Position numbers and translations under genes: made by a program
Notes under the pieces: generated by a model
Databases searched by the model: none
Told to the model about the DNA's origin: nothing
The model's input: only the letters and a program-made list of their open reading frames with translations
Part shown: positions 29,034 to 53,504 of the stretch, one piece after another
Layout of the letters: the number at the start of each line of letters is the position of its first letter
How positions within the stretch are numbered: the first letter of the stretch is position 1
Source: Herbidospora yilanensis
GTDB lineage: Bacteria > Actinomycetota > Actinomycetes > Streptosporangiales > Streptosporangiaceae
Direction: 5' to 3'
DNA: 62,138 nt
NCBI RefSeq assembly: GCF_001570565.1
Contig: NZ_BBXE01000049.1
Span: forward strand, 1 to 62,138

Positions 29034-29578
29034 CCACGCGCACCCGTCCGGTGAGACCGGCCGAGGCGAAGACCGCAGGATCGGACGGCCGCGTGTTGGC
29101 GAGAGTCGGCTTCGGCACGGGGATCTCCACGCCGGGTGCGGAGCTCCGCCCGTTCCGCCAGGTCGTCGAACGGCGGGGCTCGACGCCCGGGTCGCCGATC
29201 GCCGGGAGCGGCTCATCAGCGCCGCCTACGGCCTGTTCGCCGGCCAGGTCGTCGAACAGCGGGGGTCGACGCGTTGCCCGCCGCCCGGCGACTCGCCTGT
29301 CGGCGTTCTCGTCGTCTCCCTGGGAAGCGGGGATCCGCCGGACGCGCCGGCGCAGGCCCCTCGATCACGGTCCGCCGGGCGTGTGCTCGCCGCGGAAAAC
29401 CTTTCGCGTCCGGTCGGGGCGATCTTGCATACTCGTGGTCACACGGCCGGACGGAGAACAGGAGGGGGCGCCATGCGACGCCGAATGCCCTCGCGTCGTG
29501 AGGCTCACGTGTGACGCCGGTCGCGTCGATCGCGTGAGCCGTCTCGGACCGGTCGGGTCCGGGGCGGCTTTCTTTTCC
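29034..29578. other. 545-bp gene-poor stretch with scars and a direct repeat
   Basis: No intact gene is apparent. It contains a TetR-like N-terminal snippet on the plus strand at 29197-29241 (DRRERLISAAYGLFA) that goes nowhere, and a 29-bp direct repeat (29158-29186 and 29244-29272, 27 of 29 bases equal) flanking that snippet. It looks like decayed or rearranged DNA next to the tRNA-like gene. Confidence 0.5.
29158..29272. repeat. 29-bp imperfect direct repeat
   Basis: Copies beginning CCAGGTCGTCGAAC at 29158-29186 and 29244-29272 differ at two positions. They bracket a TetR N-terminal fragment, so they could be a duplication scar. Confidence 0.6.
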
Positions 29579-29651
29579 GGCGGGTGAGGGCGCTGGTGTG
29601 CTCGACGGTTTCATACGCCGTTCCGGGTGGGTTCGATTCCCACACCCGCCA
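29579..29651 (+). tRNA. tRNA-like gene with CAT anticodon (Met), divergent
   Basis: A 73-nt cloverleaf folds by eye. The acceptor stem is GGCGGGT / ACCCGCC (7 perfect pairs), the D-stem GGGC / GCTC, the anticodon stem ACGGT / GCCGT with loop TTCATAC (anticodon CAT), and the T-arm GTGGG-TTCGATT-CCCAC; the discriminator is A. The G1-C72 pair speaks against initiator tRNA, leaving elongator Met or the tRNA-Ile read with a modified C. Conserved positions are off: position 8 is G rather than T, and position 14 is G rather than A. No CCA is encoded. It may be a divergent functional tRNA of mobile origin or a decaying copy. Confidence 0.7.
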
Positions 29652-29710
29652 CCGACGGACGACGCCTTCGCGGGGGTCGCGAGAACCGGCCGGCCTGGCC
29701 CTCCCAGGCG

Positions 29711-41993: not shown

Positions 41994-44813
41994 TCAGACG
42001 CGGGTCCACTTCTGGTTGGACCCGCCGTTGCAGGTCCAGATGCGCGCCTTGGTGCCGTTGGCGGTGCCGTTCACCTCAAGGCACTTGTTGGCGCCCACGG
42101 CGGTCATGCTGCCGTCGGAGTTCAGGCGCCACTTCTGGTTGTTCTGGCCGTTGCAGTCCCAGATGAGGACCGCGGTGCCGTCGGCCGTGCCGGCGCCGCT
42201 CACGTCCAGGCACTTGTTGCCGTACACCCGCAGCTCGCTCGCGGCGTTGCTGGTCCACGACTGGTTGGTCTGGCCGTTGCAGTCCCAGATCTGGGCCAGC
42301 GCGCCGTTGGTCGTCGACGCGCCGTTGACGTCCAGGCACCGGTTGGATCCGGTGCCCCGCAGCGCGCCCGTCCAGCCGGTCGAGGGGGTGCCGGTGGCGA
42401 AGGTGAAGGAGTCCACGTCGAACAGGTAGCCCGACCCGGTCGCCCCGCGGAAGACGAGGTACAGCGTCGCGGCCCCGGACGGCGCGCCGCTGAGGGTCGC
42501 CGAGACGTTGGCGAAGGTCTCCCAGCTTCCGGTGGCGGCCACGGTGGCCGTGCCCAGCAGCGTGCCCGTGGCCGAGCCCGCCCGGACCTCGATCCGGCCG
42601 CCCACGCCCGCCGAGGAGACCCGCGCGGTGAAGGTCGTGGCGTTGCTCAGGTTGTACGGCTGGAAGGAGATCCAGTCGCCGTCGTCGACGAAGCCCACCG
42701 TCTTGCCGCCCTCGGCGACGGTCTTGTCGGCCGTCTGCACGCCCTGCTGGGCGCCGAAGTGCTCGGCCTGGCGGAGCCTCGGCTGGAGCGTCCGGGTGCT
42801 CGTCGAGGTCAGGCTGCCGTTGTCGGTGTAGGAGGCCGTGAAGACGCCGAAGATGTTCGCCGCCGAGTCGTGCTCACCGTCGACCGGCACCGCGATGGTG
42901 CCGCTGCACCCGGTCCTGGAGGTGATCTGGTGAGCGTGGCTGTCGTGGCCCAGGAAGTAGGTGACCGACACCCGCGAGCAGTCGATCGTGCCGTCCTCCG
43001 GGTCGCTGACCGAGACCTGGTAGGACACGGTGTCGCCGAAGGAGAAGAGCTGGCCGTCGCCGGGGGTGGTGAGCGTGACCGACGGGGCGGTGTTGCCGAC
43101 CGTCACGTTGACGCTCGCGCTGCCGGTCAGGCCCTGCGGGTCGCGGACGGTGAGCGTCGCGGTGTAGGCGCCGTTGGCGGTGTAGGTCTTGCTCGGGTTG
43201 GCCGAGGTGGAGGTGGTGCCGTCGCCGAAGTTCCACGAGTACGTCAGCGCGCCGCCCTCGGGGTCGGAGCTGCCCGACGAGGAGAAGTTCACCGTCAGCG
43301 GGGCCGCCCCGGAGGTCTTGTCGGACGAGGCCCGCGCGATCGGGTTGCGGTTGGCCTGGCCGATGTACTCGACCCGGTAGAGGGCCTGGTTGTTGCTGCC
43401 GGTGCCGTAGTCGAGCACGTACAGCGCCCCGTCGGGGCCGAAGGCCATGTCCATCACCTGCGTGCCCGACCAGGGGAACGCGGAGATCTCGCCGTAGCCG
43501 CCGGAGGAGGTCACCTCGATGGCCTTGATCCAGCGGCGGCCGTACTCGCCGGCGAAGAAGCGGCCGTTGAGCGCCTGGGGGAACTTGACGCTGGAGTTCA
43601 GGTTCGCGTCGTACCGGTAGACCGGGCCGCCCATCGGCGACTCGGAGCCGGAGCCGAACTCGGGCGGCGAGCCGGCGTCACCGGCGTACCTGATCCACGC
43701 CGGCTTGGCCGCGGGGAGCGTGGTCAGGCCGGTGTTGCGGAAGGAGTTGTTGGTCGCCCCGCCGGAGCAGTTGTACTTGCTCCCGGTGCTGTTGCTGGCG
43801 AAGTTCCACTCGTTGTAGGTCTCGCTGGTGGAGTTGCTTCCCGTGCAGTACGGCCAGCCGTAGAAGCCGGGGCCGGTGACCCGGTTGAACTCCACCTGGC
43901 CGCTCGGGCCGCGGTTGGAGTTGGACGACCCGGCGTCGGGGCCGTAGTCGCCGAGGTAGACGACGCCGGTCGCCTTGTCGACGCTCATCCGGAACGGGTT
44001 GCGGAAGCCCATCGCGTAGATCTCGGGCCGGGTGTTCGCCGTCCCCGGCGCGAACATGTTGCCGCTGGGGATCGTGTAGGTGCCGTCGGCCTGGGGCTTG
44101 ATCCGCAGGAGCTTGCCGCGCAGGTCGTTGCTGTTGGCCGCGGAGCGCTGGGCGTCGTACTGCGGGTTGCGGTTGGTGCGCTCGTCGAGCGGCGAGTAGC
44201 CGCTCGACTCGAACGGGTTGGTGTCGTCGCCGGTGGTCAGGTAGAGGTTCCCCTGGGCGTCGAAGTCGATGTCGCCGCCGACGTGACAACACTGGCCCCG
44301 GTCGTTGGCGACCCGCAGGACCACCTTCTCGCTGGAGGTGTTGAGGGTGTCGTCGGAGTTGAGGGTGAACCTGGACAGGTACAGTTCACCCTTCCACGCG
44401 TCGAACTGCGACTGGGTGCCGGTGGCGGGCGCGTCGCCGCTCGGGGTGCTCAGCCGGGGCGAGTAGTAGAGCCAGACGTACCGGTTGGTGGCGAAGCCGG
44501 GGTCGACCGCCACCCCCTGGAGGCCCTCCTCGTCGTGGGAGTAGACGTTGAGCCGGCCGGCCACCTTGGTGTTGCCGTTGACGTCGGTCACGCGGACCGT
44601 GCCGTCGCGGGCGGTGTGGATGACCGAGCGGTTCGGCATCACGGCCAGTGACATCGCCTCGCCCAGCTCGTTGCCGCCGGAGGCGAGCGGCACCTGCTGG
44701 TAGTCGGAGGGCGAGATGGTCAGCGCGTTCGCCGGGGAGGCGGTGAGCGCGACGACCGCCGGCGCGATGAGCGCCATCGTGGTCAGCATTCTGAGCCACG
44801 GACGTCGGGACAT
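41994..44813 (-). CDS. Secreted PQQ-dependent sugar dehydrogenase-like protein with PKD, CBM6 and lectin
   Basis: 939 residues. Signal peptide to about ANA. The beta-propeller (about 35-475) has the soluble glucose/sorbosone dehydrogenase pattern: HTARDGTVRVTDVNG, EEGLQGVAVDPGF, CCHVGGDIDFDAQGNLYL, GDDTNPFES, EIYAMGFRNPFRMSVD. A PKD domain (NPIARASSDKTSGAAPLTVN), a second Ig-like domain, a CBM6-like module and a three-repeat ricin lectin follow. Reaction by family: PQQ-dependent oxidation of a sugar. ATG 44813 is chosen, with AGGAAGGA 8 bp upstream; the frame runs on to 44885 without support. Contains the unusual vicinal CC in GQCCHVGG, common in this subgroup. Confidence 0.88.
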   Translation of the reverse strand: MSRRPWLRMLTTMALIAPAVVALTASPANALTISPSDYQQVPLASGGNELGEAMSLAVMPNRSVIHTARDGTVRVTDVNGNTKVAGRLNVYSHDEEGLQGVAVDPGFATNRYVWLYYSPRLSTPSGDAPATGTQSQFDAWKGELYLSRFTLNSDDTLNTSSEKVVLRVANDRGQCCHVGGDIDFDAQGNLYLTTGDDTNPFESSGYSPLDERTNRNPQYDAQRSAANSNDLRGKLLRIKPQADGTYTIPSGNMFAPGTANTRPEIYAMGFRNPFRMSVDKATGVVYLGDYGPDAGSSNSNRGPSGQVEFNRVTGPGFYGWPYCTGSNSTSETYNEWNFASNSTGSKYNCSGGATNNSFRNTGLTTLPAAKPAWIRYAGDAGSPPEFGSGSESPMGGPVYRYDANLNSSVKFPQALNGRFFAGEYGRRWIKAIEVTSSGGYGEISAFPWSGTQVMDMAFGPDGALYVLDYGTGSNNQALYRVEYIGQANRNPIARASSDKTSGAAPLTVNFSSSGSSDPEGGALTYSWNFGDGTTSTSANPSKTYTANGAYTATLTVRDPQGLTGSASVNVTVGNTAPSVTLTTPGDGQLFSFGDTVSYQVSVSDPEDGTIDCSRVSVTYFLGHDSHAHQITSRTGCSGTIAVPVDGEHDSAANIFGVFTASYTDNGSLTSTSTRTLQPRLRQAEHFGAQQGVQTADKTVAEGGKTVGFVDDGDWISFQPYNLSNATTFTARVSSAGVGGRIEVRAGSATGTLLGTATVAATGSWETFANVSATLSGAPSGAATLYLVFRGATGSGYLFDVDSFTFATGTPSTGWTGALRGTGSNRCLDVNGASTTNGALAQIWDCNGQTNQSWTSNAASELRVYGNKCLDVSGAGTADGTAVLIWDCNGQNNQKWRLNSDGSMTAVGANKCLEVNGTANGTKARIWTCNGGSNQKWTRV

Positions 44814-44928
44814 GCGGTGTTCCTTCCTGACAAAGGAGAAGTCAGGGCAAGGCGCGCGCCGCCACGCTGTTGCCGGGAGGGTCATGCTTCTCGTGCCCGG
44901 AGGTGTGCCGCCTCGGGAGCATCGCTAC

Positions 44929-45073: not shown

Positions 45074-46722
<1,649 letters not shown>

Positions 46723-46768: not shown

Positions 46769-47275
46769 TCACCCCGCCTTCGCCTGCTCACGGGCGGCCT
46801 CGCCGATCGCGGCGAGGTCGTCTCCCGAGCCGCTGACGACGACCAGATGGTCGTCGGTGAACACGGCGACGTCGGTCGTTCCGCCGCGCTCCACCACGTT
46901 GGCCGGGCCGGGCCGCGCCTCCACCTTCCCCGCCGAGGAGCACTCGGCGTAGAAGCGCTTGAAGGTCTGGACGACGTCCGTGCCGGACACCACGACCTCC
47001 GAGACCGACGCCCCGCCGGCCGACTCGAACACCCGGAACCGCACCCGGGCGTCGCCCGGGGCGATGCTCCGTCTCCCGCACGGCACCAGCGCCTCCTCCA
47101 GGTCGGCCCAGCGGGTGTCGCCGGTCGGGCCGTTCGTCCAGGGGCCGCCGGGCAGTTGCGACGCGTCGAGGAGCACCTGCGGCTCCGCCGGGCCGGCCGC
47201 GACCGGCCCGCCCTCCCCGGTGCAGCCGGACAACCCGGCCACCGCTACCGCGGCGACGAGCGCCCATCGGCTCAT
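46769..47275 (-). CDS. Lipoprotein, unknown function (last gene of SARP cluster)
   Basis: 168 residues. Lipobox LSGC after a short signal, then a sensor-like domain (DASQLPGGPWTNGPTGDTRW; RVFESAGGASVSEVVVSGTD; ECSSAGKVEARPG) resembling the PknH-sensor-like lipoproteins common in actinobacteria, though I cannot confirm that. It starts 4 bp inside the preceding MauE-like gene (ATGA overlap). Two cysteines remain in the mature part, possibly a disulfide made by the cluster's redox proteins. Confidence 0.65.
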   Translation of the reverse strand: MSRWALVAAVAVAGLSGCTGEGGPVAAGPAEPQVLLDASQLPGGPWTNGPTGDTRWADLEEALVPCGRRSIAPGDARVRFRVFESAGGASVSEVVVSGTDVVQTFKRFYAECSSAGKVEARPGPANVVERGGTTDVAVFTDDHLVVVSGSGDDLAAIGEAAREQAKAG

Positions 47276-47772
47276 CTGATCCTCCTTCGAGGGGACGACG
47301 ACGAAACGGACCACACCGACGCCGCGACGACCGCCAGCAGCGCCGCGAACCCGGCCAGGGCCAGATGCGGCAGCCGGACGGACAGGGACCCCGGGACGGG
47401 GACCACACCCGCCGCCATCGCGGCGCTCGCGGCGGCCCACACGGCGCCGACGCCCGCTTTCACCGGGGACACGGGGGTGACCGCGTCGAGGCAGCCGCAC
47501 GGAACCCGGCCGCGCACCCCGAGCAGGACCAGGAGATACCCGGCCAGGGCGGTGTGCCACACCGCCGCCGCCGTCCAGGCGTACCGGCCGGGATCCCCCC
47601 AGACCCAGAACCCGATCGCCGCGCCGCCGACCACCGGTCCGGCCAGGGCGGCGGCGCGGATCACCCGGGAGGGCAGCAGGCCGTGGCCCCGGGTGACCTC
47701 GCCGGCCCCGAGGAAACCGGCCGCCACGAGGAGCAGCGCGCCGGCCAGGGCCACATCGCCGATCAGGATCAT
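47272..47772 (-). CDS. MauE-like membrane protein
   Basis: 166 residues, four membrane helices (VALAGALLLVAAGFLGAG; AALAGPVVGGAAIGFWVW; WHTALAGYLLVLLGV; LALAGFAALLAVVAASVW) with a periplasmic CGC motif (C92, C94, in VPCGCLDAV), the pattern of the MauE/DoxX-like family. MauE is needed for disulfide formation and maturation of the methylamine dehydrogenase light chain. Here a light-chain-like protein and a thioredoxin-like protein are in the same operon. Confidence 0.75.
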   Translation of the reverse strand: MILIGDVALAGALLLVAAGFLGAGEVTRGHGLLPSRVIRAAALAGPVVGGAAIGFWVWGDPGRYAWTAAAVWHTALAGYLLVLLGVRGRVPCGCLDAVTPVSPVKAGVGAVWAAASAAMAAGVVPVPGSLSVRLPHLALAGFAALLAVVAASVWSVSSSSPRRRIR

Positions 47773-47791
47773 CGTTCACCACACCGATCGT

Positions 47792-48334
47792 TCACCACGC
47801 CAGCAGCAGGACCGTCAGCGTGGCCAGGAACCCGGCCGCGCACCACCGGCCCACCCAGGCGAGCCGCCCCAGCAGGTGGCGGTCCCACCCGGAGGGGTCG
47901 CCGCTCAGGGAGCGGGTGAGCGGCATCAGCACCCGGCCGAGGCCGAACCCGAGCCCGGCCAGCACGCCGGGGAGGAGGCCTCCGACGAGCACGACGGCGA
48001 GCACCAGGGTGTGCGGGAGCGCGGTCGGGGTGAACGTGCGCACGCCCGTGCCCATCTCGAAGCCGAACTGGAAGGGCCCCTCGAACCGGCTGCGCGCAAT
48101 GATCTCCTGCGGCACCAGCCTGCGGTTCTGGATCAGCGCGAGTGGACGTCCGGCCAGCTCGAAGGCGAGCAGCACCGCCGCCACCGGGATCAGCGCCCAG
48201 GTGCGCACGGCCTCCGGCACCACCGAGACGAACCCGCCGAAGGCCCCCGCGACGGTGCCCGACACCAGCCCGCCCAGCACCAGCCCGGACGAGAAGGCCG
48301 TGAGTTGTCCCCGCCAGACCGGCGAGGTCAGCAA
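47792..48334 (-). CDS. Membrane protein of SARP cluster, unknown
   Basis: 180 residues, about four helices (AFSSGLVLGGLVSGTVAGAF; TWALIPVAAVLLAFELAG; HTLVLAVVLVGGLLPGVLAG; WCAAGFLATLTVLLLAW). A polar stretch LVPQEIIARSRFEGPFQFGF follows helix two. The best start is TTG 48334 with a poor ribosome site, so the N-terminus is uncertain. I cannot name a family. Its place between the small membrane gene and the MauE-like gene implies a role in the same membrane system. Confidence 0.65.
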   Translation of the reverse strand: MLTSPVWRGQLTAFSSGLVLGGLVSGTVAGAFGGFVSVVPEAVRTWALIPVAAVLLAFELAGRPLALIQNRRLVPQEIIARSRFEGPFQFGFEMGTGVRTFTPTALPHTLVLAVVLVGGLLPGVLAGLGFGLGRVLMPLTRSLSGDPSGWDRHLLGRLAWVGRWCAAGFLATLTVLLLAW

Positions 48335-48352
48335 ATCCGCTGAGTTGAGGCT

Positions 48353-48505
48353 TCAAACCGAGCCGGACAACGAGAACCCGGCGACCACGCCCATCAACGC
48401 CCAGGCGAGGAAGTCCAGCCTCCCGGGCCAGACCGCGCCGGCCGCGGCCACGAGCGCCGTCAGGGCGAAGAGGAACCCGGCCGTGCGGGTGGCGGGCAGG
48501 GTCAC
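48353..48505 (-). CDS. 50-residue single/double-helix membrane peptide
   Basis: MTLPATRTAGFLFALTALVA then a second hydrophobic run WALMGVVAGFSLSGSV. The GTG start overlaps the stop of the light-chain-like gene by 4 bp, which supports it as a real, translationally coupled gene despite its size. Function unknown. Confidence 0.55.
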   Translation of the reverse strand: MTLPATRTAGFLFALTALVAAAGAVWPGRLDFLAWALMGVVAGFSLSGSV

Positions 48506-48999
48506 GGGTTGGCCCGCGAGCAGATGTAGAAGGTGCTGCCCGCGCCGTACACCACGAAGCGGCCGTCGGCACAGCGGTAGGGGGTGCTGCCGCTCGTCCA
48601 GCGCCAGGCGTTCTTCTTCGTGACCCCGCCCGCGCCGCACTCGACGATCGGCGTGTAGTAGGAGTAGGCGTTGCCGTCGGTGCGGAACCAGCCGTCGCTG
48701 CCGCAGTAGCTGCTGGAGTACGACCCGCCCACGCACACCCGCTGGGTGGTGCCGTCGCGGTAGCCGTCGAAGTCGGTGTAGCCGCTGTTCGAGCAGCCCG
48801 ACCACTCCGTGCCCACGGTCGCCGAGGCGGTCCTGACGCGGGCGGGCGGCAGCGCGCCCACCACGTTCAGCGCCAGCGCGCCGCCGAGCACGCCGACCGA
48901 CCTGACCATCGTGCGCCGCGACACGCGGGCCCGGACCGGCGGACGCGCCGCCACGTCCTCGTCCGCCGCCGGGACGTCGGACCAGTAGTCGCGGGTCAT
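48502..48999 (-). CDS. Tat-exported Cys-rich protein resembling methylamine dehydrogenase light chain
   Basis: 165 residues. A twin-arginine signal (SRRTMVRSVGVLGGALAL, residues 27-45) follows a long N-region, as in MauA precursors. The mature part has six cysteines (69, 89, 99, 121, 143, 160). By eye, SDGWFRTDGNAYSYYTPIVE and the end VVYGAGSTFYIC line up with the MauA segments around its first cofactor tryptophan and its C-terminus. MauA has about twelve cysteines and makes tryptophan tryptophylquinone from two tryptophans; here W104 fits the first, but the second position reads Val, so that cofactor is unlikely. No large subunit or MauG gene is in the window. Probably a disulfide-rich secreted protein of unknown function. 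Confidence 0.6.
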   Translation of the reverse strand: MTRDYWSDVPAADEDVAARPPVRARVSRRTMVRSVGVLGGALALNVVGALPPARVRTASATVGTEWSGCSNSGYTDFDGYRDGTTQRVCVGGSYSSSYCGSDGWFRTDGNAYSYYTPIVECGAGGVTKKNAWRWTSGSTPYRCADGRFVVYGAGSTFYICSRANP

Positions 49000-49006
49000 G
49001 TCGTTG

Positions 49007-49516
49007 TCACCTCACGTTCGACGATTCGGGCAGATCCACCCCGAGAAGCCGGTCGAGGTCCGGGTCGGACCCGACCGCGCGGCGCCACTCCTCTGTGCCG
49101 TCGGGGGCGTACTTCACGAGCGAGGGGGTCGCGCCGACCGCGACCGAACCGAGCAGCTCGGCGTCGACGACCGCCTCGACGTGGGGGGCCGGTCCGGCCC
49201 AGGCCGCGCCCGCCTCCCCCGCACTGAGCAGGACCAGCCGGCCCTTCACCCGGCCGGGCGGCATCCCGGCCAGATGGACGGCGCGGGCCCGGCAGCTCGG
49301 GCACTGCTCGGAGACCACGAGGACGAAGGTCGGCCGCCCGTCGGCGGAGGCGAAGCGGGTCACTCTCCGGACGGTGTCCGGACCGGGGGCGGCGGGCACG
49401 GCCAGCACCGCCTGCTGGAGCTCGCGGACGATCCTGAGCAGCGCGGAGATCGCGAACAGGGCGATCACCATGCCGAGGAAGCCGAACACGGCCAGCGAGT
49501 TGATCACGTTCTGCAC
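49007..49516 (-). CDS. Membrane-anchored thioredoxin-like (MauD-like) protein
   Basis: 169 residues. One N-terminal helix (VFGFLGMVIALFAISALLRIV) anchors a thioredoxin-like domain facing out, with a CxxC motif in VVSEQCPSCRAR (C72, C75) and the cis-Pro segment VGATPSLVKYAPDG. MauD has the same layout and keeps the light chain correctly disulfide-bonded. It lies 7 bp upstream of the light-chain-like gene. Start at GTG 49516. Confidence 0.78.
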   Translation of the reverse strand: MQNVINSLAVFGFLGMVIALFAISALLRIVRELQQAVLAVPAAPGPDTVRRVTRFASADGRPTFVLVVSEQCPSCRARAVHLAGMPPGRVKGRLVLLSAGEAGAAWAGPAPHVEAVVDAELLGSVAVGATPSLVKYAPDGTEEWRRAVGSDPDLDRLLGVDLPESSNVR

Positions 49517-49521
49517 GGCGG

Positions 49522-50193
49522 TCAGCTCAGCCCGCAGGTGAGGGCGTCGGCGACGGCCGCGAACCGGGGGTCGTCGGCGTCCCGCGCGGTGAGGATCGTG
49601 GTCGTCGAGGTGTTGACCAGGACGGCCGAGCGCAGGACCCGCCCGTCGTCGGCCCGCTCGTCGCGTTTCCACAACGCGCCGCCGCGCACCCGTTTGCCGG
49701 TGCCACCGGGCGTGGGCAGCGCTCCGGCCGGGTTGACCTGGATCGAGCAGACGCCCTCCAGGCTGTTGACCGCGAGCAGGCCGTCGAGGCGCACCCGCGC
49801 CCCGAGCCGGGGAGCCAGCACGACCCCGTCGGGGGCGTCGCGGACGTCGAAGGCGGCGAGCAACCCGATGAAGGCCTCGAACGGCACGTTCGTCCCCTGG
49901 ACGAAGGTGTAGACCTCGTGGTGCGGCCCGATCCAGAGCATCGTGGTGCCGCCGTTCTCCGGGTCCTCGTGGGAGACCAGCCGGGCCCCGTGCCACGACA
50001 CCTCGCGGACGGTGAACCGGTCGTACTCGCCGAGGTGGCGGGCGATGAGCTCACGCGCGCCGGCCGCGCCGGTGTGGAAACGCTGCGCGCCGCGGTCGCT
50101 CCGCGCCCAGAGCAGGTAGCTCCAGCCCATGGTGAAGGGCTGCGGGCTGCCGTCGACGGTGAGCGTACGGCCATCTGGTGTTCGCGCTAACAT
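49522..50193 (-). CDS. Unknown protein of SARP cluster
   Basis: About 223 residues, soluble, no signal peptide or membrane segment: MLARTPDGRTLTVDGSPQPF, WSYLLWARSDRG, HEDPENGGTTMLWIGPHHEV, VNSLEGVCSIQVNPAGALP, ending ADALTCGLS. I do not recognise a family. It is first in the row of structural genes, 5 bp before the thioredoxin-like gene, so it is likely needed for the same process. ATG 50193 chosen; the frame stays open upstream to 50247. Confidence 0.6.
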   Translation of the reverse strand: MLARTPDGRTLTVDGSPQPFTMGWSYLLWARSDRGAQRFHTGAAGARELIARHLGEYDRFTVREVSWHGARLVSHEDPENGGTTMLWIGPHHEVYTFVQGTNVPFEAFIGLLAAFDVRDAPDGVVLAPRLGARVRLDGLLAVNSLEGVCSIQVNPAGALPTPGGTGKRVRGGALWKRDERADDGRVLRSAVLVNTSTTTILTARDADDPRFAAVADALTCGLS

Positions 50194-50259
50194 CGCCACG
50201 GCACCAGAGTGAGCGCTCCGCGTCCACGGCCGCCACACGACCGCCATACGGCCGCCACA

Positions 50260-51009
50260 TCACAGGCCTGCGTCCTCCAGGAGGATGCGGTCGTGCAGGG
50301 CCGTCAGCGTGGTCGACGGCCCGACCCCGATGTGCTCGACCAGCGCCGCCCGGCAGTCGTGGTAGACCAGCAGCGCGTCGGCCCGGCGGCCGCTCTTGTG
50401 CAGGGCGAGCATCAGCCGGGCGCGCAGGTCCTCGCGCAGCGGAGCGCGGGCGACCGCCACCCGGAGCTGGTCGATGGCCTCCTCGTAGGCGCCCAAGCGG
50501 ATGCACGCGCCGGCGAAGTCGCCGACCGCGGCCGTCCGGCGCTCGTCGAGCTGGGTGGCGGCGTTGCGCAGCGCGTCGGAGCTGTCGGCGAGGTCCTGGA
50601 GCGCCCCGCCGCGCCAGAGGGCGAGGCCGTCCCTGAGCAGGCGGGCCGCCGCGGCGTCGTCGCGCTCGGCCAGCGCGGTGGCCGCGGCCGACCGCGCGGC
50701 CTCGAACTCGGCCAGGTCGAGCCGGCCCTCGACGTCGGTCATCCGGTAGCCGCCGGGCTCGGTCCGGATCTCGACGCCGGAGCAGGCCAGCCCCTTGCGC
50801 AGGTCGGCGATGTAGGTCTGGAGGTTCCGCCGCGCCGACGGCGGTGCGCCGTCCCCCCACAGGACGGCGATGCAGCGCTCGGTCGGGACCGTGTGGGGCG
50901 AGTCGAGCAGCAGGAGGGCGAGGAGCTGGCGGTGCTTGATCCGGGTCAGGGCGAGCCGGCTGCCGTCCGGCCGCTGGATTTCGAAGTGCCCGAGCAGGAG
51001 AAATCTCAT
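50260..51009 (-). CDS. SARP-type (AfsR/DnrI/RedD family) regulator
   Basis: 249 residues. An OmpR-like winged-helix domain (RFLLLGHFEIQRPDGSRLAL, then HRQLLALLLLDSPHTVPTER, NLQTYIADLRKGL) precedes the bacterial transcriptional activation domain (DLAEFEAARSAAATALAERD; ALLVYHDCRAALVEHIGVGP). This is the minimal SARP form, which activates secondary-metabolite and some other clusters from promoters with direct repeats. It lies between the tRNA-Sec gene and the operon below, on the same strand, so it probably activates that operon. Start ATG 51009. Confidence 0.9.
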   Translation of the reverse strand: MRFLLLGHFEIQRPDGSRLALTRIKHRQLLALLLLDSPHTVPTERCIAVLWGDGAPPSARRNLQTYIADLRKGLACSGVEIRTEPGGYRMTDVEGRLDLAEFEAARSAAATALAERDDAAAARLLRDGLALWRGGALQDLADSSDALRNAATQLDERRTAAVGDFAGACIRLGAYEEAIDQLRVAVARAPLREDLRARLMLALHKSGRRADALLVYHDCRAALVEHIGVGPSTTLTALHDRILLEDAGL

Positions 51010-51039
51010 GGAACTCCAGCCGACTCTGGGGGGAGCAGC

Positions 51040-51131
51040 GGAGACGGACGGGAATCGAACCCGCCGCGCCGAGGTCCTCGGCGCCACCGGTTTTGAAGAC
51101 CGGGAGGGCCACCAGGCACCTGCACGTCCCC
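51040..51131 (-). tRNA. selC: tRNA-Sec (anticodon TCA)
   Basis: 92 nt. The anticodon stem CCGGT / ACCGG holds the loop CTTCAAA, giving anticodon TCA that reads UGA. The long variable arm (CGCCGAG / CTCGGCG) and a T-arm GCGGG-TTCGATT-CCCGT are present, with an acceptor of about seven pairs plus one doubtful eighth (GGGGACGT / CCGTCTCC) and a six-pair D-stem with a bulge. These are selenocysteine tRNA traits. It lies 54 bp downstream of selA on the same strand, so may be co-transcribed. Confidence 0.9.
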
Positions 51132-51185: not shown

Positions 51186-52472
51186 TCACCTCCACGCGGC
51201 CACCACCGCGTGGAAGAGGTCGTCGTCGCGGTGCGGCGCGACCGCCCGCAGGTCGAGCAGGCAGCGCCCGCCCTCGACCCGGCCGACCACCGCCGGGTCG
51301 CCCGTCCGCAGCGGCCGGGCCAGCGCCTCGGGCACCGCCACCGCCGCGCTGGGCAGCACGACGCCGGGTGCTCCCCCGCCGCCGACGGCGGCCCCGGTGC
51401 CGAGCGCCTCGGCCGGCACGCCCGCCTCGGCCAGCCGGCGCGCCAGGTCGTCGGCGCGGCGGCGCACGACGGCCGGGTCGGCGGTCAGGGCCTCGCGGGC
51501 CGGGTTGGCCGCGTGGGTGAGCGTGGCCTCCACCGCCGCGAGCGTCAGCTTGTCCACCCGCAGTGCGCGGGCCAGCGGGTGGCGGCGCAGCCGCTCGACC
51601 ACGTCGGCCCGCCCGAGCAGCAGGCCGCACTGCGGGCCGCCGAGCAGTTTGTCGCCGCTGGCCGTGACCAGGTCGGCGCCCGCGCGCAACCAGGTCGCGG
51701 CGTCGGGCTCGGCCGGCAGCAGCGGCTCGGGCGTCAGCAGTCCCGAGCCGATGTCGGCGACCAGCGGCACGCCCAGCCCGGTCAGTTCGGCGACGGACGG
51801 CGTGGCCGCGAACCCCTCGATCCGGTAGTTCGAGGGATGCACCTTGAGCACGAAACCGGTCGCGGGCCCGATCGCCCCGGCGTAGTCGGCCACCGAGGTG
51901 CGGTTGGTGGTGCCGACCTCGCGCAGGCGGGCCCCGGTGGAGGCCAGCAGGTCGGGCAGCCGGAAGCCGTCGCCGATCTCGACCAGTTCCCCCCGGCTGA
52001 TCACGATCTCCCGGCCCTGGGCCAGCGTGGTCGCGGCCAGCACCAGCGCGGCGGCGTTGTTGTTGACCAGGTGGACCGCCTCCGCGTCCGGGACGGCCCG
52101 CGCGAGCGCGGCCAGCGCCGCGCGGCCGCGCCGGGCCCGGCGTCCGGTCTCCAGGTCGAACTCGACGTCGGTGGTCCCGCCGGCGTCCCGGACCGCGTCG
52201 AGGGCCGGGGCGGAGAGCGGGGCCCGGCCGAGGTTGGTGTGCAGGAGCACCCCGGTGGCGTTGATCACCTGACGGGGCCCGCCGCCCGGCAGCGACCGCA
52301 CCACCTCGTCCGGCACGTCGGCGGGGCTGATCTCCCCGTCTCTCGCCCGTCGCTGGGCCGCCTGGACGGCTCCCTTGACCCGGCCCCGGCCCAGACGTTC
52401 GACGAACGGGGCGAGGCGGGGATCGTCCAGGAGCGCGTCGGTGCGGGGGATGTGGCGCCGCGGGTCGGTCAC
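51186..52472 (-). CDS. selA: L-seryl-tRNA(Sec) selenium transferase
   Basis: 428 residues, slightly shorter than the usual 460. Converts Ser-tRNA(Sec) to Sec-tRNA(Sec) using selenophosphate and PLP, in the cytoplasm. Motifs: VINATGVLLHTNLGRAPLS, VEFDLETGRRARRG, HLVNNNAAALVLA, EIGDGFRLPDLL, GTTNRTSVADY, LVADIGSGLL and the PLP-lysine motif VTASGDKLLGGPQCG. The start is GTG 52472; a promoter-like TATATC nearly one leaderless spacing upstream agrees. Divergent from selD. Confidence 0.95.
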   Translation of the reverse strand: MTDPRRHIPRTDALLDDPRLAPFVERLGRGRVKGAVQAAQRRARDGEISPADVPDEVVRSLPGGGPRQVINATGVLLHTNLGRAPLSAPALDAVRDAGGTTDVEFDLETGRRARRGRAALAALARAVPDAEAVHLVNNNAAALVLAATTLAQGREIVISRGELVEIGDGFRLPDLLASTGARLREVGTTNRTSVADYAGAIGPATGFVLKVHPSNYRIEGFAATPSVAELTGLGVPLVADIGSGLLTPEPLLPAEPDAATWLRAGADLVTASGDKLLGGPQCGLLLGRADVVERLRRHPLARALRVDKLTLAAVEATLTHAANPAREALTADPAVVRRRADDLARRLAEAGVPAEALGTGAAVGGGGAPGVVLPSAAVAVPEALARPLRTGDPAVVGRVEGGRCLLDLRAVAPHRDDDLFHAVVAAWR

Positions 52473-52520: not shown

Positions 52521-53504
52521 ATGGTGAGACTGACCCAATACGCCCAGGGCGGCGGCTGCGCGTGCAAGATCCCGCCCGGCGAACTCGAAGACGTCCTGGC
52601 GGGTCTCGGCGTCACCCCCACGGACCCCGCCGGAGAACTGCTGGTCGGGCTGGAGACCGGAGACGACGCCGCCGTCGTCCGCGTCGAGGGCGGCACGGCG
52701 GTCGTCGGCACCGCCGACTTCTTCACCCCGGTGGTGGACGACCCCTACGACTGGGGCCGCATCGCCGCCGCCAACGCCCTGTCCGACGTGTACGCCATGG
52801 GCGCCCGCCCCCTCATGGCGCTCAACCTGCTCTGCTGGCCCCGGGAGACCCTCTCGTACGACCTGGCCCGCGAGGTCCTGCGCGGCGGCGCGGACGTGGC
52901 CGCCTCGGCCGGCTGCCACGTGGCGGGCGGCCACAGCGTCGTCGACGCCGAGCCGAAGTACGGCATGGCCGTCACCGGCCTCGCCGATCCCGCCGCCCTG
53001 ATGCGCAACGACGCCGGCCGCGCCGGATTGCCGCTGTCGCTCACCAAGCCGCTCGGCCTCGGCGTGCTCAACAACCGCCACAAGGCGACGGGCGAGGTGT
53101 TCCCGGAGGCGGTCGCCGTCATGACGCGGCTCAACGCCGTCGCGAGCGAGGCCGCCGTCCGGGCCGGGGTGCGCTGCGCGACCGACGTGACCGGGTTCGG
53201 GCTGCTCGGTCACCTCTTCAAGCTGGCCAGGGCCTCGGGTGTGACGGCCGTGCTGGACAGCGGGAAGGTGCCCCTGCTGGAGGGGGCGCGGGAGGCCGTC
53301 AGGGACGGGTTCGTGCCCGGGGGCTCGCGCCGCAACCTCGACTGGGTGGCCGCCCACCTGTCGGGCGGGGCCGACGAGGAGACGATGCTGCTGCTGGCCG
53401 ACGCGCAGACCTCCGGGGGGCTGCTGATCGCCGGGGAGGTGCCCGGCGCCCCGGTGATCGGCGAACTGGTGCCGCGCGGCGAGCACCCGATCGTGATCAG
53501 GTGA
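52521..53504 (+). CDS. selD: Selenophosphate synthase
   Basis: 327 residues. Makes selenophosphate from selenide and ATP. The active-site loop reads QGGGCACKIPP (C13, K16), with Cys where some organisms use selenocysteine, so it does not depend on itself. Further motifs: GDDAAVVRV, ADFFTPVVDDPYDWG, AANALSDVYAMGARP, HVAGGHSV and DVTGFGLLGHL. ATG 52521 overlaps the inverted repeat upstream. Its end overlaps the convergent GntR gene by 8 bp. selB is not in the window. Confidence 0.95.
   Translation: MVRLTQYAQGGGCACKIPPGELEDVLAGLGVTPTDPAGELLVGLETGDDAAVVRVEGGTAVVGTADFFTPVVDDPYDWGRIAAANALSDVYAMGARPLMALNLLCWPRETLSYDLAREVLRGGADVAASAGCHVAGGHSVVDAEPKYGMAVTGLADPAALMRNDAGRAGLPLSLTKPLGLGVLNNRHKATGEVFPEAVAVMTRLNAVASEAAVRAGVRCATDVTGFGLLGHLFKLARASGVTAVLDSGKVPLLEGAREAVRDGFVPGGSRRNLDWVAAHLSGGADEETMLLLADAQTSGGLLIAGEVPGAPVIGELVPRGEHPIVIR

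Follow-up and report, generated by a model that had tools for sequence, protein, structure and literature searches.

A probable MauF-like selenoprotein read across an in-frame TGA in a SARP-led operon of Herbidospora yilanensis

The window analysed here is a stretch of 62,138 nucleotides, contig C49 (NZ_BBXE01000049.1) of the 7.85 Mb genome of Herbidospora yilanensis. Between positions 46,769 and 51,009 it carries an operon whose reading frames all lie on the minus strand, overlapping or separated by small gaps, as an earlier note on this DNA had described. Its genes are numbered as follows: 1, a SARP regulator; 2, a soluble protein; 3, a thioredoxin; 4, an exported six-cysteine protein; 5 and 6, the two halves of a gene for a protein with selenocysteine (Sec); 7, a MauE-like protein; and 8, a lipoprotein. 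Within the window the operon is adjoined by the genes for tRNA-Sec, SelA and SelD. The earlier note saw a separate 50-residue membrane peptide followed by a membrane protein; we instead take genes 5 and 6 as halves of a single gene with an in-frame TGA between them. From sequence comparison we conclude with high confidence that this gene encodes a MauF-like membrane protein, perhaps a thiol carrier, in which Sec, directed by an RNA hairpin, would replace the conserved cysteine of MauF. It very likely founds a new selenoprotein family. Below, G numbers denote genomes (G000 being that of H. yilanensis) and L numbers denote loci.

Gene 5 (48353-48505) ends in a TGA (48353-48355), after which gene 6 (47792-48334) continues in the same frame. 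The joined gene (47792-48505, minus strand) starts with a GTG at 48505 and encodes 237 residues, the TGA presumably being read as Sec at residue 51. Attention was drawn to the junction by the match of gene 6 alone to MauF (profile match 90.6%); MauE, also considered for gene 6, was rejected (profile match 1%). With U written as C, the joined family aligns with four MauF sequences over 164 columns (hhalign 95.8%, E 6.5e-9), and the TGA falls on the invariant cysteine of MauF. This Sec/Cys position is one of six invariant columns among 19 aligned sequences, three of them MauF. The protein thus resembles the MauF of Paracoccus denitrificans, likewise a membrane protein, by profile over most of its length and at the conserved cysteine site, Sec standing on the invariant Cys of WSPCG. 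However, its N terminus is shorter by about 40 residues, and it has Sec where MauF has Cys and lacks mauA and mauB neighbours. A place in a methylamine dehydrogenase cluster was not found, the genome having no match to PF02975 or PF06433 (the latter without a positive control). Sec lies where the second hydrophobic segment ends, and the AlphaFold2 model of the joined chain forms a single confident fold over the TGA (predicted local distance difference test score, pLDDT, 90; predicted template modelling score 0.89). There is a further likeness to the DsbD/CcdA proteins (PF02683, PF13386), which share a Sec/Cys at a transmembrane helix end: divergent family members approach DsbD_TM (4.9e-6; 26.4 bits vs a cut-off of 27.1) and DsbD_2 (4.5e-5; 23.9 vs 24.9 bits).

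Scanning contigs with a gene 6 alignment yielded 71 loci in many actinomycete genera. TGA stands at the site in 72/72 comparable copies (72 of 75 rows; L036 and both L089 rows were left out because their frames are not comparable), and 71 of these share AG[FY]..SGS[TV]-TGA-[ST].NSA or a near variant. The exception is the minus-strand copy at L028, left out of later alignments because its flanks are too different. At L028:10192-10761 (-), Nonomuraea sp. SBT364 has a second, divergent MauF-like frame after an in-frame TGA (flanks FATA-TGA-GMNAAG), which runs opposite to the main cassette. A stop-read-through search of 394 genomes of the class found matches in 15; 17 of the 18 matches contain exactly one TGA, and the other, L126 (G172), contains none and has TGC at the site. 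Among the 296 genomes of a phylum sample, 14 match: H. yilanensis itself, ten with TGA, one with TGC (L143), G706, and G623, whose match has an internal TAG and TAA and was dropped as due to chance. In these further homologues the stop at the site is TGA in 10/10, within WSP-TGA-G.SM or STLFSP-TGA-GLSM, and the two actinobacterial homologues L143 and L126 carry TGC. Codon choice is constrained near the TGA, with a Kullback-Leibler divergence of 0.72 (8 codons) and 0.44 (5 codons upstream) vs 0.12 (32 codons), at p 0.001 and 0.0005.

After the TGA comes a candidate hairpin of the Sec insertion sequence (SECIS) type (48310-48326, minus strand), with 7 bp, an apical loop GUC placed 33 nt after the TGA, and an energy of -13.6 kcal/mol. 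If the last G-U pair opens, the loop becomes GGUCU, similar to the loop in the SECIS of E. coli fdhF. This 7-bp hairpin is RNAalifold's choice on 71 sequences. Its cells are paired in 99.7%, vs 92.9% in shuffles (a level reached by 0/500), and pairing is 33-55% when the hairpin is slid to other positions. All seven pairs form in 49 of the 50 distinct rows, compared with a mean of 5.9% and a maximum of 14% of synonymous shuffles, in which amino acids are kept and codons redrawn. In 19/51 rows both partners of pair 31-45 are changed, and three pairs are invariant. A closer hairpin, about 14 nt from the TGA, had mild support, was not present in all clades, and was replaced by the 7-bp one. In a 2026 review, bacterial SECIS limits are given as a loop of 3-9 nt with an early G, a stem of 4-16 bp, a loop 16-37 nt after the UGA, and an energy of -7.5 or lower (PMC13188914); the hairpin lies within them for loop, stem, distance and energy.

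The machinery for Sec is at hand. The window contains tRNA-Sec (51038-51131, minus strand; ARAGORN; Rfam RF01852, 75.2 bits), selA for selenocysteine synthase (51186-52457, minus strand; TIGR00474, 3.7e-123) and selD for selenide water dikinase (52530-53504, plus strand; TIGR00476, 1.4e-116), the starts of both protein genes being uncertain. The genome holds selA, selB, selD and tRNA-Sec, SelB scoring above its cut-off on another contig. Beside selB there is a second selA (G000:C39:64230-68660), and the genome thus has two. SelA exceeds its cut-off in 121 of the 394 class genomes overall and in all 14 of those that carry the TGA (hypergeometric 3.8e-8; the genomes are not independent), and in the phylum sample it is found in 10/10 TGA genomes. 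In total, it occurs in 24/24 genomes with the TGA form and in 0/2 with the Cys form. Within the flanking DNA retrieved, selA or tRNA-Sec lies near the cassette in 24/71 loci.

Several findings weigh against a single Sec-containing gene. TGA is the usual stop here (244/283 ends of genes 2, 3, 4 and 6; 71/72 for gene 3), so its uniformity is weak evidence on its own, and after this stop-codon baseline it was rejected as sufficient proof. Both-sided change is seen in just one of the seven hairpin pairs, pair types are no more numerous than in shuffles (219/500), and over the first 30-48 nt raw folding energies are only mildly better than those of synonymous shuffles (Z averaging -0.1 to -1.8). 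The L036 and L089 rows had to be dropped, and G706, which has no SelA, gives a partial match with an unreadable Sec site. The DsbD matches stay below the Pfam cut-offs, and the H. yilanensis protein differs from DsbD/CcdA in having no Pfam match at all, DsbD included; Foldseek finds no PDB match for the joined-chain model at E <= 0.001. Two separate genes in the same frame, a 50-residue membrane peptide and a translationally coupled membrane protein downstream, would suit TGA as the commonest stop in these operons, as well as the GTG/CTG/TTG codons near both starts. We nevertheless find this very improbable, as the S.NSA residues are conserved as protein between the TGA and any usable start for a separate gene 6, homologues have Cys and an open frame, the two halves jointly match a single MauF and are modelled as one continuous fold, and SelA accompanies the TGA form in every case (24/24). 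That a near-cognate tRNA reads the UGA, inserting for instance Trp, or that the codon is recoded in some other way, is likewise very improbable. Sequence alone does not name the inserted residue, but homologues have Cys rather than Trp, the hairpin is within the published SECIS limits, and SelA follows the TGA form.

The counts out of 71 loci were obtained with gene 6 as sole bait. Gene 2 accompanies it in 69/71, gene 3 in 69/71 and gene 4 in 68/71; genes 2, 3 and 4 are thus present in nearly all loci and form the core of the module with the gene 5-6 unit. MauE (19/71), the lipoprotein (16/71) and the SARP, directly upstream in 7/71 and additionally in L066 after a gap of about 150 nt, are lineage-specific additions. 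The eight-gene set described in the earlier note is kept in full in all eight of the closest loci examined (H. yilanensis, G001-G005, G033 and G037). A second cassette copy, inverted and with its own TGA, lies near the first in Phytoactinopolyspora limicola (L039:10482-13236).

Gene 3 (49007-49516, minus strand) encodes a membrane-anchored thioredoxin with a CPSC motif. It has no ATG start and the nearest in-frame GTG is at 49516, so that its start is uncertain. Its likeness to MauD, already suspected, is borne out by the profile (96.8%) and by the CxxC motif, both cysteines being invariant in 45 members; the sequence identity is only about 20%, and Pfam gives weak thioredoxin matches only. 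Gene 4 (48502-48999, minus strand) codes for the presumed client, a six-cysteine protein that carries a twin-arginine translocation (Tat) signal and in which the motif AWRW...C.D is invariant; it belongs to no Pfam family. A match to it is found in 11/100 relatives. It was not found in G006, one of seven genomes of the genus looked at, and the match in G039 contains an internal TAA.

The earlier note had placed gene 4 at the centre of the operon, as a relative of the methylamine dehydrogenase light chain MauA that had lost its quinone cofactor. The MauD-, MauE- and MauF-like partners, the Tat signal and the richness in cysteine speak for this, as does the position of gene 4 directly after the MauD-like gene, the same order as mauD-mauA. 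However, PF02975 matches 0/70 gene 4 members, and mature gene 4 against mature MauA (five sequences) gives 0.4% in hhalign, run with shuffle and reverse controls, with a score of 14.4 that lies within the null (100 column shuffles reach 17.0). At full length, hhalign aligned the Tat signal alone, and a PDB sequence search returned Tat-signal and chance matches only (best E 0.37). Foldseek finds no match at E <= 0.001, with a gene 4 model that is itself weak (pLDDT 58, core about 80). For the Cys-bearing protein of the distant loci, too, there is no MauA match (0.8%). Neither Pfam nor profile comparison nor fold search supports a MauA relative, which is quite improbable. No gene 4-MauA alignment exceeds the null, so that the claim that the second tryptophan of the tryptophan tryptophylquinone cofactor reads Val has no support; in gene 4 the invariant Trp pair lies in AWRW. 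The absence of the large subunit and of MauG was seen correctly, as the genome has no match to MauA PF02975, MauB PF06433 or MauG PF03150. PF02975 finds mauA in a Paracoccus plasmid used as a control and has no match in the 394 class genomes, PF03150 matched in 2/14 control genomes, and PF06433 is without a positive control. MauD-, MauE- and MauF-like parts beside a Tat-exported Cys-rich protein, with no MauA, MauB or MauG detected, fit a reuse of the Mau machinery for another exported protein, and that part of the proposal stands without its MauA relative. Also to be weighed is a Cys-rich secreted product resembling the ribosomally synthesized and post-translationally modified peptides (RiPPs), which a SARP would control and MauD/E/F would modify as enzymes. 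This is what PMC7794033 proposes for Streptomyces clusters that combine MauE/MauD with precursors of at least 8 Cys, and here too a SARP heads the operon. It seems unlikely, the client being Tat-exported, with about 100 mature residues and conserved Cys, Trp and Asp, which is more like a folded protein, and the SARP standing directly upstream in just 7/71 loci.

If genes 5 and 6 do encode a Sec-containing MauF-like protein, it would carry reducing equivalents across the membrane to the MauD-like thioredoxin, in the manner of DsbD/CcdA. The thioredoxin would then reduce or reshuffle the disulfides of the exported protein, enabling its maturation. In six distant loci (L146-L148, L150, L151 and L153), the protein just upstream of the Sec gene is a different one of Tat type, with 10 cysteines, and a MauD-like protein is visible by eye in four of the six. 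In G339 and G362 (L130, L136) gene 4 was not found, which counts against the general reading; at these two loci, a secreted-looking Cys protein, by eye one with peptidoglycan-binding repeats, takes its place after the thioredoxin and before the Sec gene. It seems, then, that the client differs between loci and the carrier is retained. We lean, on balance, towards a widespread selenium-dependent Mau maturation machinery across Actinomycetota, running from Sec-MauF to the MauD-like thioredoxin and on to varied Tat-exported Cys-rich proteins. It may partly explain the retention of the Sec machinery in aerobic actinomycetes, and gene finders would split its carrier at the UGA.

Pfam and NCBIfam scans of the joined proteins (for NCBIfam, four joined proteins plus six TGA and two Cys proteins of the outgroup) name no family apart from the sub-threshold DsbD matches. 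The 2026 review catalogues 119 prokaryotic selenoprotein families, and its Table 1 contains none that is MauF-like and no SGS[TV]U motif (PMC13188914). The catalogued selenoproteins are alike in having Sec at a redox-active Cys site, a SECIS after the UGA and an operon setting, and the nearest family, by name only, is TsoB (rhodanese/DsbD-like). Passages of PMC1794560 and PMC5029168 hold nothing similar, and no report of a MauF-like selenoprotein was found in search listings of open-access papers, NCBI Protein not being searched. The pairing of MauE and MauD has been noted before: PMC7794033 describes homologues of both beside Cys-rich product genes in the decRiPPter Streptomyces clusters, in a passage that names neither MauF nor selenocysteine, and cites 1997 work on MauD/MauE. 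The H. yilanensis gene would add a selenoprotein family of a type, the MauF/DsbD-like membrane thiol carrier, without an entry in that table. It would also point to a process that depends on selenium in aerobic actinomycetes, about a third of the loci having selA or tRNA-Sec close to the operon, and to a concrete case of Mau-type maturation parts that would serve exported proteins other than methylamine dehydrogenase. The roles of MauD, MauE and MauF become testable in tractable soil bacteria. Gene calls are probably wrong at such loci, one gene being annotated as a peptide and a truncated protein.

Among the remaining genes, Pfam recognises the SARP and MauE, and genes 2, 4, 6 and 8 are without a match; an NCBIfam scan of the operon proteins gives nothing beyond the SARP. 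The SARP (50260-51009, minus strand) has both Trans_reg_C (26.7 bits, cut-off 26.2) and BTAD (128 bits, 4.9e-37), in agreement with its first identification. The tie to specialised metabolism proposed with it would apply to the few lineages that have it, and not to the rest of the loci. The MauE-like membrane protein with CGC (47272-47772, minus strand) was also correctly recognised (PF07291, 8.4e-7; 29.8 bits vs a cut-off of 27). Downstream of it lies the lipoprotein (46769-47275, minus strand). The soluble core member, gene 2 (49522-50193, minus strand), has no family assigned, none of 46 members matching Pfam confidently, and an identity with MauJ was rejected (profile match 0.2%). Elsewhere in the window, ARAGORN calls a tRNA at 29578-29653 and gives its anticodon as two bases, undetermined. 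The operon itself is flanked by large secreted-looking proteins at 45121-46722 (+) and 41994-44885 (-), in which ricin-type QxW-like repeats were seen by eye only.

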